A stretch of 64,000 nt of DNA from Candidatus Melainabacteria bacterium (GTDB lineage: Bacteria > Cyanobacteriota > Vampirovibrionia > 2-02-FULL-35-15), in contig JAHFBF010000005.1 of assembly GCA_023250195.1 (NCBI GenBank), positions 62,001-126,000 on the forward strand, written 5' to 3'. The translations under genes were made by a program, and so were the position numbers. Positions 4,301 to 37,505 of this stretch are shown piece after piece; position 1 is the first letter of the stretch, and each line of letters starts with the position of its first letter. The notes below the pieces were generated by a model that ran no database searches, was not told where the DNA came from, and saw only the letters and a program-made list of their open reading frames with translations.

Positions 4301-5266
4301 TTATTTCTGTCTTCCAGAAAGAGATTTGAGAAATTCAACTAAATCTTTCTGTTCCTGCTCATTAAGATTTAAAGGTTTTTTAAGTGGATCTTTGTATCCA
4401 TCTTGTCCACCACCTGCATTGTAATAAACAATTACCTGCTCAAGGGTTTCAAACTGACCCTGATGAAAGTATGGCGCAGTATTTGCTACTTCACGCAGTG
4501 TAGGCGTTTTAAATTTCCTGGTATCTTTTCCTGTAATTGAAATAGCAGATCTGCCCACATCATTAGTTATTGGCAAACCAATATTATGAAAATCACCATC
4601 GGTAAAATCAGTTCCTTTATGACATGCTGCACACATTGCTTTTCCAAAAAAAAGATCCATTCCACGTTTTGCACTGATTGAGAGAGCCGCTTTATCCCCG
4701 ACTACAAATTTGTCATAGTTAGAATCTTTTGAAATAAGCGTTCTTTCAAATGCTGCAATTGCATGAATAAGATGTGAAGTGGCAATTGGTGTTTGACCAA
4801 ATGCATTTGCAAACTCTTTCACATACTGCGGGTCATTATTTAGCTTTGTTAAAACTCCTTTTACTGATTCTCCCATTTCTTTTGGATTTTTAATTGGTCC
4901 AAGCGCCTGCTCTTCCAGGCTTTGTGCTCTGCCGTCCCAGAAAAGAAACTTGAGGTTAGTTGTATTAAAGACCGTAGGTGTGTTTCTATCTCCCTTTTGA
5001 CCATTTATACCATCTGAAACCGGCTTATCATCAGCAAAACCATGCTCCGGTTTATGGCAGCTTGCGCAACTTACTGTGCCTGTTTTAGATAAAATTGGAT
5101 CAAAAAACAGCTTCTTTCCAAGCTTAACTTTAGGATCAACCGTAGAATCGTCCCGCCGGGGCACCTCTACTATTTTATCTTTGTCTGCAATAATAATAGA
5201 AATAGCCTGATTAGCAAAAAAGGAAATGCTTAAAACTAGGAATATTATTAAAAAAGTATTTTTCAT
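4301..5266 (-). CDS. Di-haem cytochrome c peroxidase family protein (MauG/CcpA type)
   Basis: A 321-residue protein with a signal peptide (MKNTFLIIFLVLSISFFANQA) and two CxxCH haem-binding motifs, CASCH in the N-terminal half and CAACH in the C-terminal half. The family context motifs FDPILS, NTPTVFN, FWDGRA and FKTPTLREVANTAPYFH(Q)G are present. Members reduce periplasmic hydrogen peroxide using electrons from small c-type cytochromes or oxidise other substrates (MauG branch); I cannot tell which. Its 5' end overlaps the divergent nuclease gene by 41 bases, so the two signal peptides are encoded on opposite strands of the same DNA. No Shine-Dalgarno sequence is evident. Confidence 0.88.
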   Translation of the reverse strand: MKNTFLIIFLVLSISFFANQAISIIIADKDKIVEVPRRDDSTVDPKVKLGKKLFFDPILSKTGTVSCASCHKPEHGFADDKPVSDGINGQKGDRNTPTVFNTTNLKFLFWDGRAQSLEEQALGPIKNPKEMGESVKGVLTKLNNDPQYVKEFANAFGQTPIATSHLIHAIAAFERTLISKDSNYDKFVVGDKAALSISAKRGMDLFFGKAMCAACHKGTDFTDGDFHNIGLPITNDVGRSAISITGKDTRKFKTPTLREVANTAPYFHQGQFETLEQVIVYYNAGGGQDGYKDPLKKPLNLNEQEQKDLVEFLKSLSGRQK

Positions 5267-5900
5267 TCTATTAATTTTATTTTTTTTCTCATCACTTATT
5301 ACTCAGGGTGCGATTAATCGCACTTCTACCTATTCTGTTGATTATAAATCAAAACCAACATTCTCAAACAACTGCTCAATAGAAAATAAACAATCTGTTG
5401 TTAAAAAGGTTTTCGACGGAGATACAATTCTAGTAAGAGATGAGATCTCAGAGATGAGACCTGAGAAAAGAACAATCCAAAATTCTTATCTCTCATCTCC
5501 CACCTCTCATCTCTATAAAATCCGTCTTTTGGGTATTGATGCTTTTGAGCATGATCAAAATATTTACGGCATAAAGGGAAAAGACTTTCTAGCAATGCTT
5601 ATTTTAAATAAAAATATTTGTATTGAAACTGATGTGCAAAAAAATGATATTTACGGAAGAACACTGGGATACATTTTTCTTAATGATGTTTTTGTAAACG
5701 AAGAACTCGTTAAAAACGGTCTATCTCTTTTATATGATTTTCCGCCAAACATAAAGTATTTATCGCGTCTTAAAAAAGCACAAGTGTATGCACGTCAAAA
5801 TATGCTTGGTGTTTGGCAAGAGCACAATTACATTCCAGAAACACCAGCACAATGGAGACATAAGCATCCTTTCAACAAAAAACAGGTTGGAAAAATATAA
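5226..5900 (+). CDS. Secreted staphylococcal-nuclease-like thermonuclease with in-frame repeat insertions
   Basis: A 224-residue SNase-fold protein with a signal peptide/TM segment (KKVFFILLILFFFSSLI). Core motifs are VFDGDTILV, YKIRLLGIDAFE, DIYGRTLGYIFLNDVFVNEELVKNGL; residues equivalent to the catalytic Arg35, Glu43 and Arg87 of S. aureus nuclease are all present, so it probably hydrolyses nucleic acid outside the cytoplasm. Two non-family segments are encoded by DNA repeats: INRTSTY just after the signal peptide (palindrome at 5308-5323) and a roughly 26-residue insertion between the first two core strands (5436-5514). The ATG has AAGGA only a couple of bases upstream, and it overlaps the divergent peroxidase gene. 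Confidence 0.85.
   Translation: MLKTRNIIKKVFFILLILFFFSSLITQGAINRTSTYSVDYKSKPTFSNNCSIENKQSVVKKVFDGDTILVRDEISEMRPEKRTIQNSYLSSPTSHLYKIRLLGIDAFEHDQNIYGIKGKDFLAMLILNKNICIETDVQKNDIYGRTLGYIFLNDVFVNEELVKNGLSLLYDFPPNIKYLSRLKKAQVYARQNMLGVWQEHNYIPETPAQWRHKHPFNKKQVGKI
5308..5329. repeat. Palindromic element, family A (GTAG/CTAC type), in coding DNA
   Basis: GTGCGATTAATCGCAC (5308-5323) is a perfect 16-bp palindrome, followed by TTCTAC, which completes the right arm of the 28-bp element seen intact in pabB at 28592-28619. The left GTAGAA foot is lost here. It encodes AINRTSTY in the nuclease. Confidence 0.75.
5436..5514. repeat. GA/CT-rich imperfect inverted repeat, family B, inserted in the nuclease gene
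   Basis: The left arm (agagatgaga...agagatgaga from 5436) is the imperfect reverse complement of the right arm (...ctctcatctc...tctcatctct ending at 5514), about 30 bases each around an A-rich centre. It stays open in frame and adds about 26 residues not expected in the nuclease fold. Related DNA occurs in pabB and in the family 9 glycosyltransferase gene. Confidence 0.75.
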
Positions 5901-27687: not shown

Positions 27688-29016
27688 TTATTGCCTGGCT
27701 TCAGCTAAAGCACTAATTATCCCTTTTACTTTTAGCTTGATCTCTTCTAACTCACTCTCAGGCTCTGAATCAGCCACAATACCACCACCTGCATTAAAAA
27801 CGATCTTTCCGCTCTGAACAAAAATAGTTCTAATTAAAATATTAAAATTCATCGTTCCATCAGTTCTTATATAACCAAAAGAACCAGTGTAAGCACCTCG
27901 CTTTGTAGGTTCTATTTTTTCTATTATTTTCATTGCCGCAATTTTTGGTGCTCCAGTAATAGAACCGCTTGGAAACATAGCTTCAAATATTTTTTTTAAT
28001 TTAATGCCGGGGTTTAACCTTCCCTCTACAGTAGAAACTACATGATTTAAATGTTTGTAAGATTCAATCTCCAAAAGTTTTTTAGCCTGCACTGATCCAT
28101 ATTCACAAATTCTGCCAAGATCGTTTCTTTCCAGATCAACTATCATTATATTTTCAGCTTGATTCTTAGAGTCAATTTCAAAAATATTTTCAGGCAAAGT
28201 GCCTTTAATAGGGCGGGTTCTAATGTATCTTTCATTCTGTCTGGGTTCAACATATATAAACTCTTCCGGCGAGCTGGAAAGAATACTTACAAATGGGGTT
28301 TTGAAATAGCATCCATAGGGATTTGGAGAAGCAGACCTTAATTTTAGATAAAGCTCTAAATCATCAACACCCTCAAGCTCAATAGAATATTCACGTGTAA
28401 GATTTACCTGATAAACATTTCCAGCTTTTATTTCTTCTTTTATTTGTTTTACTTTTTCCAGATACTCAGAGTCGGTCATGTTAGAGGTGAGTATTGCATC
28501 GCGCGTATTGAGTATTGAGCTTGAACTTAGCTCTGGATTATTAGACTGAGGTTCGACCTTATCAAAATATGCAAAGAAAAAATCAGGATATGTAGAAGTA
28601 CGATTAACCACACTTCTACAGCGAAATAAATCATATGAGAAATAGCCTACAAATATTCCATCTGGATTATTTTTTTCTTCTTCCAGCTTTTGTTCTATAA
28701 AGTCAAAGCAATTTACATTAAAGAGATGAGAGGTGAGAGGTGAGAGGTGAGATTCTTTTCTGACCTCTGATCTCTGATTTCTGATTTCTGATTTTTGATC
28801 TCTGATCTCTACTAGATTAACTTCATTTAAAGATCCATAAATATAATATTTTGGATTTACTCCATAAAAAGAATTTTTACAGAGTTCTTTTGGTCCACCA
28901 GAACTATCTATCCAAAACGAAACAACACAATCTCTCAAAGAATCCAAAAATCTGATCTCTGATCTCTCATTTCTGATCTCTGATCTATTTTGTTCTTTCA
29001 ATTTCAACTGAAACAT
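27688..29016 (-). CDS. pabB: Aminodeoxychorismate synthase component I, carrying repeat-encoded insertions
   Basis: PabB aminates chorismate for p-aminobenzoate synthesis in folate formation. The chorismate-binding domain is complete: KAGNVYQVNLTREYSIELEG, FLYVEP-like FIYVEPRQNERYIRTRPIKGTLP, NIMIVDLERNDLGRICEYGSV, LNHVVSTVEG, MFPSGSITGAPKIAAMKIIE, NFNILIRT. The N-terminal part is interrupted by segments encoded by DNA repeats: SEIRNERSEIR at 28951-28986, about 30 residues (IRDQKSEIR...) at 28722-28811, and SVVNRTSTY at 28592-28619. All stay in frame before the catalytic core, so the enzyme is probably active. The start overlaps folB by 32 bases. Confidence 0.9.
   Translation of the reverse strand: MFQLKLKEQNRSEIRNERSEIRFLDSLRDCVVSFWIDSSGGPKELCKNSFYGVNPKYYIYGSLNEVNLVEIRDQKSEIRNQRSEVRKESHLSPLTSHLFNVNCFDFIEQKLEEEKNNPDGIFVGYFSYDLFRCRSVVNRTSTYPDFFFAYFDKVEPQSNNPELSSSSILNTRDAILTSNMTDSEYLEKVKQIKEEIKAGNVYQVNLTREYSIELEGVDDLELYLKLRSASPNPYGCYFKTPFVSILSSSPEEFIYVEPRQNERYIRTRPIKGTLPENIFEIDSKNQAENIMIVDLERNDLGRICEYGSVQAKKLLEIESYKHLNHVVSTVEGRLNPGIKLKKIFEAMFPSGSITGAPKIAAMKIIEKIEPTKRGAYTGSFGYIRTDGTMNFNILIRTIFVQSGKIVFNAGGGIVADSEPESELEEIKLKVKGIISALAEARQ
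28592..28619. repeat. Palindromic element, family A, intact 28-bp copy inside pabB
   Basis: GTAGAAGT (28592-28599) and ACTTCTAC (28612-28619) form perfect 8-bp arms around an imperfect centre. The right half matches the element in the nuclease gene at 5308-5329 and, read on the coding strand, both give NRTSTY. The GTAG foot resembles that of REP sequences. Confidence 0.75.
28722..28811. repeat. GA/CT-rich inverted repeat, family B, inside pabB
   Basis: The left arm consists of agagatgag followed by three aggtgag-type units; the right arm consists of tctgatctctgatttctga-type units ending at 28811. The arms are imperfect reverse complements. A second block of tctgatctctgatctctcatt type lies at 28951-28986. 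Both remain open in the pabB frame. Confidence 0.75.
28951..28986. repeat. tctgatctc repeat block, family B half-element, at the 5' end of pabB
   Basis: Four tctgatct-type units give SEIRNERSEIR near the PabB N-terminus. The block reaches the last codons of folB (stop at 28985-28987), so it lies at the overlap of the two genes and may have created the pabB start region. Confidence 0.65.
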
Positions 29017-31571: not shown

Positions 31572-32825
31572 ATGGCTGGAGAAATAAAAATCGACCCGTT
31601 AGCTTTAGAAAGAATGTTAGCGTCAATAAGAATGCTCAAGGAAGGTTCCCCTGGAATCCTTACAGCAGGGATGGATTCTCCACCAGATCCTCCTGCTTTA
31701 GAAGCTTTTGCTAGAGCACATACCGCTGCATCTTCCTTAAACAATACTACTGTAGACAGGTGGGAATGGTCAGGGGTCAATCCAGATAGCATAAGGGTTA
31801 CCGATCCCGCAGGATCTATACAAGTCAACATCCCTGCTTTATTACCAGAACATCCAAACTGCCCTAGATTATCAGTCCCTCTACATCCTATAGATGAAAA
31901 TAATGCTCCTGTAACTGGTGAACGCCAATACTATGCTCCACTTTTAGTCAGAAGAGGCGGTACATGGAAAACAAGACCTGATATTAGAAATCACAAAATT
32001 ACTGGATATGTAGGTCAACCAAGTAATGTAAAAGAGATTGGGTTTGACAAAGCAGAGTCAATGACTTTAGAAGAGGTCGTTGCCAGTCACCCAAGAGAAG
32101 ATGAAGGCGGACTTTTATTACAGGCTTTAACTGGAAAAAATGTACCTGTTGTAGATGAAGGCGGACTTTTATTACAGGCTTTAACTGGAAAAAATGTACC
32201 TGTTGTAGATGTAGTTCCGGTTATTCCATTTAGTGCAGATCAAAAATACAAACCAGAATTTTCTATAAAGCTTGATGTGAGAGATTTACCACACCCCTCT
32301 TATGCAGTGTACATAGTCAGCCAGGACAGGTTAGTATACAGAATCCGTTTGCACGGTGATAGAAATACTCCTATTGAAGTAGGAATAATAAGTGATCAAG
32401 CAAAAAAAGATCTTAACTGGAATCCTATGCCTAAAGATCAAATCCCGGATGAATTAGCTCCGATAATTCCAAGTTCTTCTGGTCAGATTAAATTAATTGT
32501 AGTTCCTATTAGAAAACCAAGACCGTCAATATCCACTCTTGATTACCTGTCATCTCGCAGTCCTGATTCATATGCCCGGAAGTCTTATTTTGATCCAACA
32601 GCAAATAGATCTTCAGGTAGTGTTTCAGGGACATATCTTGAAACAGGTACTGGAGGAAAAGCCAGTGGCAGTTTATATAAAGGAGATTTAATTGTACCGA
32701 GAGATGTCGATGCAATAATTTATGATATTCGTCCTATTGCATTAACACCAAATAGAATAGAAAGACTAGCCCCGGGGGAATTAGCTGGTGGGCTTACATC
32801 AATTCCAGAACCTAGTGTTAACTAG
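31572..32825 (+). CDS. Hypothetical protein, 417 aa, with a recent internal duplication
   Basis: No family recognised. It has no signal peptide and is rich in Pro, with beta-type segments (SYAVYIVSQDRLVYRIRLHGD, QIKLIVVPI). It contains two identical 18-residue units (DEGGLLLQALTGKNVPVV) from an exact 54-bp DNA duplication. A purine-rich AAGAAGGA precedes the ATG. It converges with the carbamoyltransferase gene, 16 bases away. Composition resembles the other lineage-specific proteins at 26577 and 61031. Confidence 0.62.
   Translation: MAGEIKIDPLALERMLASIRMLKEGSPGILTAGMDSPPDPPALEAFARAHTAASSLNNTTVDRWEWSGVNPDSIRVTDPAGSIQVNIPALLPEHPNCPRLSVPLHPIDENNAPVTGERQYYAPLLVRRGGTWKTRPDIRNHKITGYVGQPSNVKEIGFDKAESMTLEEVVASHPREDEGGLLLQALTGKNVPVVDEGGLLLQALTGKNVPVVDVVPVIPFSADQKYKPEFSIKLDVRDLPHPSYAVYIVSQDRLVYRIRLHGDRNTPIEVGIISDQAKKDLNWNPMPKDQIPDELAPIIPSSSGQIKLIVVPIRKPRPSISTLDYLSSRSPDSYARKSYFDPTANRSSGSVSGTYLETGTGGKASGSLYKGDLIVPRDVDAIIYDIRPIALTPNRIERLAPGELAGGLTSIPEPSVN
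32100..32207 (+). repeat. Exact 54-bp tandem duplication in coding DNA
   Basis: Bases 32100-32153 are repeated without change at 32154-32207; the unit encodes 18 residues. Absence of any difference implies a recent event. Confidence 0.93.
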
Positions 32826-35498: not shown

Positions 35499-35679
35499 TT
35501 TCAGAAGATCAGATATCAGTAGTCAGAAAATCAGAAAAACAAGATTAATTATAGCCTACAAAGTTAAGCCTTCTTAATCCAGTAATCAAATAAACTAAAG
35601 AAATTATTAATTGATCAAAAATGATAAGCAGCTAGATATATAATCCTCATTCTATAAAGAAAATCTTATTTAAGAATCT

Positions 35680-37404: not shown

Positions 37405-37505
37405 AATTCAGAAAATCAGAAGAACAAAGTTTATTATAACTTGTTAAGGATTATTACATTGAAAAACTGGAACAGTGATTACATACAATCTGTCTTAAAT
37501 AAATA

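Follow-up and report, generated by a model that had tools for sequence, protein, structure and literature searches.

The question raised by the pabB gene of a groundwater Candidatus Melainabacteria genome is whether the repetitive stretches in its reading frame are normal PabB sequence or repeats inserted from elsewhere, and what kind of repeat would settle within such a gene. The gene lies in the window, the whole stretch of 64,000 nucleotides that was analysed (G000:C5:62001-126000), and the source genome, G000, comprises 2.21 Mb in 7 contigs with a GC content of about 35%. The original prediction held that pabB carries multiple repeat-derived insertions, and PabB was compared with the orthologues found in ten other genomes of its family (11 aligned sequences including its own). 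The closest named genomes encoding this PabB are Candidatus Melainabacteria and Caenarcanales assemblies. The alignment bears the prediction out: pabB contains four in-frame repeat segments that the ten orthologues lack, and these segments do not match normal PabB N-terminal sequence.

Four repeat segments within pabB

The genes and segments are as follows.
27688-29016, minus strand: pabB, aminodeoxychorismate synthase component I, 442 aa
28985-29359, minus strand: folB, dihydroneopterin aldolase, overlapping the pabB start
28951-28985, minus strand: site 1, five-unit GATCAGA heptad array, peptide RSEIRNERSEIR
28722-28811, minus strand: site 2, complete two-armed heptad element of 90 nt, peptide EIRDQKSEIRNQRSEVRKESHLSPLTSHL
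28759-28807, minus strand: site 2, 5' arm (coding strand), seven GATCAGA-type heptads
28725-28752, minus strand: site 2, 3' arm (coding strand), four TCTCACC-type heptads, inverted relative to the 5' arm
28591-28620, minus strand: site 3, family A palindrome TGTAGAAGTGTGGTTAATCGTACTTCTACA, peptide CRSVVNRTST
28505-28519, minus strand: site 4, two-unit GTATTGA stretch (TCAATAC on the coding strand) in a hypervariable linker

The Pfam domains of PabB are Chorismate_bind (residues 183-429, 1e-78) and, with a weaker match, Anth_synt_I_N (residues 26-152, 3.5e-7). All four segments are in frame and lie upstream of the Chorismate_bind start at residue 183, so that in this genome the inserts are N-terminal, keep the frame and spare the chorismate-binding core, as had been proposed. 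The two blocks assigned to family B (sites 1 and 2) are heptad arrays whose words match the genome far above control: RATYAGAGATCAGA has 117 genome-wide matches with up to one mismatch versus 1 for the reversed control, and CTCACCTCTCACCTCT has 49 with up to two mismatches versus 0 in the control. The heptad blocks in pabB are thus far beyond chance. The first base of the site 1 array, a G, is also the last base of the folB TAG stop codon, and the array corresponds to about 9 extra residues relative to the ten family orthologues. At site 2, where the two arms are separated by 6 nt, PabB is 20 residues longer than the ten orthologues, with 38 residues between the anchors versus 18 in eight of the ten relatives. 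The element measures 90 nt but lengthens the gene by only 60 nt, so about 30 nt of the loop was replaced; the residues found there in relatives, CESGAITF, are replaced in the window PabB.

The palindrome at site 3 forms a hairpin with a perfect 9-bp stem that folds far better than shuffled sequences (z = -5.1), and it has one other, diverged copy in the genome. A third repeat-like stretch suspected near 28495-28530 proved real but weak, narrowing to site 4. Its word, GTATTGAGTATTGAG, has three weaker matches elsewhere in the genome and is multicopy in the congener G002 (24 matches). An AlphaFold model of PabB built from the 11-sequence alignment reached a mean pLDDT of only 50, too poor for loop placement. 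Because this model failed, the variability of the loops is what suggests that they lie on the protein surface. Among plasmid records, PabB has distant matches only.

Spread and design of the heptad element

The survey of the element covered 38 GATCAGA-type array loci, obtained from pattern searches and genome stretches without being exhaustive. Thirty of them lie within predicted genes, all in frame and all in the sole stop-free orientation. One is located just upstream of a likely rplF start, and the remaining seven are clearly non-coding, every one adjoining a tRNA gene, most at a distance of 25 nt or less. About 27 genes besides pabB carry the element, many of them conserved housekeeping genes. 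The hosts include phosphoglucomutase, RecJ, an S1-domain protein, CarB, a CoaBC-type flavoprotein, PriA, an oligopeptide ABC ATPase, FolP, RuvA, BioD, phosphoglycerate kinase (PGK), uracil-DNA glycosylase, ThiE/ThiD2, UbiD, CinA, RlmN, an amidase and a sulfite-reductase-like protein. Since pabB hosts the same element as these genes, it is not special in kind. The loci outside pabB and the short words near tRNA genes discussed below are as follows.
5484-5511, plus strand: heptad array in frame in a staphylococcal-nuclease-like gene (5226-5900)
L074, L043, L050:719-732, L051, L054, L067 and L070: non-coding arrays adjoining tRNA genes
35499-35558 and 37405-37464 of the window, and tRNA leaders in L226, L235, L240 and L161: TCTGAT words upstream of tRNA genes

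Full copies are about 65-95 nt long, and the two arms occur in the same order at at least 17 loci. One exact 14-mer is present 41 times in this genome, whereas none of 145 other genomes of the class, two congeners included, has it more than once; this near-confinement to one genome indicates that the amplification is recent. The element is absent from the PGK and FolP orthologues of relatives, where the corresponding loops vary, and the length gains of PGK and FolP are also smaller than the element. The same loop holds different heptads or palindromes in UbiD (G000 versus G008) and in PGK (G000 versus G007). In the UbiD gene (L063:1350-2969), a CATTGCGAGG repeat comes shortly after a GATCAGA array, and the G008 orthologue has a different heptad in that loop. 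The same two-armed element sits at one position in each of three paralogous genes arranged in tandem (L068:1726-9537), one of which matches YfhO weakly; because these genes were probably duplicated after the insertion, the three copies count as one event.

On one strand, GATCAGA and TCTCACC can be read in any frame without meeting a stop codon, but the opposite strand has a stop. Successive 7-nt units shift through all frames, so that the three frames of a heptad array are either all open or all closed, and a unit that is stop-free on one strand is a simple explanation for the tolerance of heptads in genes. The arms encode DQRSEIR (GATCAGA) and SHLSPLT (TCTCACC), hydrophilic peptides with the same seven residues in any frame. 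Both arms have C instead of G, which avoids TGA, because perfectly complementary arms would create TGA in one of them. The resulting stem mismatches may explain why the element folds weakly: as single-stranded DNA, its z scores against dinucleotide shuffles are -0.3 for the pabB copy, -1.7 for the carB copy and 0.1 for a tRNA-adjacent copy. Because this folding is no better than that of shuffles, a hairpin of the heptad element is suggested by the order and sequence of its arms.

In most of the ten genomes surveyed (samples of 107-241 kb, mismatches within arrays being allowed), tandem arrays most often have a period of 7. The words differ between species, with GATCAGA/GGTGAGA here, ATTCACG in G001, TTCGTGC in G002, and AGACCAT and AGCTGAT in G008. 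About 70% of period-7 arrays lie within genes, at a coding density of about 90%. Across the family, the density of heptad arrays is about 91 per Mb in non-coding DNA versus about 25 per Mb in genes. Arrays are thus denser outside genes and show no preference for them, but genes are avoided less strongly than is usual for such repeats. No mobilising enzyme is tied to the heptad element: this genome has two matches to the Y1-transposase (PF01797), both partial, and one full match occurs in one congener. Several genera of the family have recurring TCTGAT words of 7 or 8 nucleotides immediately upstream of their tRNA genes, and these words are possibly both a leader element and a seed of dispersed heptads.

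Repeats in the same PabB loops of relatives

The comparison with related genomes found pabB there with fewer or different inserts. The repeats at six loops of the relatives' PabB, of which sites 5 and 6 are loops within the chorismate-binding domain, are as follows.
Site 1: a repeat of the CATTGCGAGG family in G002; in G003, likely a remnant of a GTAGGGATGTTCC palindrome
Site 2: short palindromes in G001 and G008
Site 3: AGGATTG heptads in G006; CAGCAAT heptads in G008
Site 4: CATTGCGAGG-family hairpins in G002, G003, G008 and G009; a different hairpin, encoding GNDK, in G001; a GTAGAAACGTT palindrome in G005; heptads in G006
Site 5: AGGATTG heptads in G006; an octad run in G009
Site 6: a GTCATCCTGAGC hairpin in G004; AAAATCG heptads in G008

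The idea that inserts spare the chorismate-binding core therefore does not extend to the relatives, whose repeats occupy two loops of that domain. In G010, which has the shortest complete PabB, no repeats were found at the examined loops. The CATTGCGAGG word is multicopy in all 11 genomes (7 to 188 matches; controls 0), and AGGATTG has 103 matches in G006 and few in other genomes except G007. A reversed control word, GTTAGGAGTTAGGA, which is almost absent from the other genomes, matches 44 times in G007; being confined almost wholly to G007, it is itself a species-specific heptad there. In G002, a CATTGCGAGG repeat lies at the folB/pabB junction (L003:1453-1540). Because the N-terminal frame of relatives is stopped there, this repeat appears to provide the start of the pabB frame.

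The suggestion that pabB is an insertion hotspot was examined in the ten relatives only, the window genome being left out of the counts because it had suggested the gene. One uniform detector was used, and its hit density over samples of coding sequence totalling about 1.45 Mb gave the expected numbers. The relatives' pabB genes contain 6 heptad arrays versus 0.32 expected (Poisson P ~1e-6) and 6 hairpins versus 1.4 expected (P 0.003), P values that are optimistic because arrays within one genome are not fully independent. Both kinds of repeat are enriched, and pabB stands as a repeat hotspot.

Origin of the element and its relation to known repeats

These observations are most probably explained by family B being a small non-autonomous repeat that was recently amplified in one species and is selfish and tolerated inside genes. 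In its full form, consecutive GATCAGA heptads would be followed by a short spacer and then by consecutive TCTCACC heptads, the whole making an imperfect inverted repeat. A copy in the open orientation and with a net length divisible by three would add a peptide to the protein. Copies in tolerant loops would persist, and all others would presumably be purged. With several tolerant loops, pabB would gather repeats of several families in most of the lineages examined. The element may move by copying that swaps out about 8-40 nt of a loop at short homologies, with target-duplicating transposition as the disfavoured alternative. It is also possible, though less likely than not, that a family-wide process makes and spreads species-specific 7-nt repeats, so that orthologous loops would be recolonised time after time by each species' own word, and that the TCTGAT words of tRNA leaders could be the seed of the present repeat.

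Arrays might instead have grown in place by slippage from chance short heptads, with no movement between loci. A slippage bias fits the dominance of period 7 in most sampled genomes and the several words per species, and some arrays are short and one-armed. However, one identical word and one two-armed order recur at the 17 or more loci here and almost nowhere in congeners, and independent slippage would not yield the same inverted second arm every time. The two-armed copies with sharp boundaries against orthologues, as at PabB site 2, also argue against slippage, which is an unlikely account. That the hairpins or peptides have a selected function in regulating mRNA or protein is in turn quite improbable. 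The seven non-coding copies beside tRNA genes and the TCTGAT words in tRNA leaders of several genera are consistent with it, and the similar heptanucleotide elements of Geobacter metallireducens are interpreted as regulatory (PMC2700814). Yet the in-gene copies are species-specific and differ between orthologues, and in other species the loops hold unrelated repeats or none.

Ordinary loop variation, or an artefact of assembly or binning, is very improbable. PabB linker length varies in other bacteria too, but the extra residues here consist of multicopy repeat words. The genome is in several contigs and the named relatives are metagenome-assembled, whereas its completeness is 98.9% and its contamination 0.07%, and copies are found on six of the seven contigs with reading frames intact. 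Contingency switches, in which the heptad copy number would toggle genes on and off, are scarcely credible: each 7-nt slippage step would shift the frame, as phase variation demands, but most hosts, PGK, CarB, PriA and RuvA among them, are conserved housekeeping genes, the in-gene copies are all in frame, and most arrays are short and imperfect.

A selfish repeat tolerated inside genes has a precedent. The best-known selfish palindromes within protein-coding sequence are those of Rickettsia and Wolbachia, host-bound bacteria with reduced genomes. The Rickettsia palindromic elements (RPE) were reportedly described by Ogata et al. in 2000, and the Wolbachia palindromic elements are considered together with them. 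RPE have a given length of 100-150 bp, and different families (RPE-4, -6 and -7) occur at the same or nearby sites in orthologues (PMC3767692); RPE insertions affect RNA genes too (PMC2229807). The element described here resembles RPE in being a small repeat, with arms inverted at 17 or more loci, that lies in frame in conserved genes and appears to be tolerated by the protein, and orthologues outside the group have no insert (here those of PabB, PGK and FolP). Unlike RPE, its full copies are shorter, its arms are tandem heptads, its word is species-specific, part of the loop is replaced, and the host is a Melainabacterium. Its mode thus appears closest to that of RPE, the two being compared by description with no claim of membership.

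Other heptanucleotide repeats are more distant. The Geobacter metallireducens elements (consensus GGACCGG, 49 copies; class 3 sites MTYCTGA) are four or five tandem heptamers, dispersed and reported within genes (PMC2700814). They differ in their words and regulatory interpretation, and the passages on them contain no analysis of frame or orthologues. Over-represented 7-nt tandem units, some of them inverted, are found in Nostoc, Calothrix and Xanthomonas, and thus also in the cyanobacterial phylum, but the Nostoc and Xanthomonas heptamers are G-rich, quadruplex-forming and under-represented in coding regions (PMC4692102). The REP or GTAG/CGTC-tagged palindromes are described as small, high-copy and extragenic (PMC3733652), whereas most full copies of the present element lie inside genes, as do 30 of the 38 array loci. 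The papers found on Melainabacteria or Caenarcaniphilales describe no such repeats in their titles and abstracts. Selfish, protein-tolerated repeats being already known from Rickettsia, what is new here is the heptad arms, the species-specific words and the partial replacement of loops. A groundwater relative of cyanobacteria thus shows the same habit with an element of another design, and its close relatives, in which the same loops are empty or otherwise filled, allow the conversion of junk DNA into protein sequence to be compared as in a natural experiment.

Two other duplications were noted in the window. At 1-891, bases 1-300 are repeated exactly at 592-891, beside serine-type TCT/TCA-rich repeats, and at 32099-32206 there is a perfect 54-nt tandem duplication within the ORF at 31572-32825.
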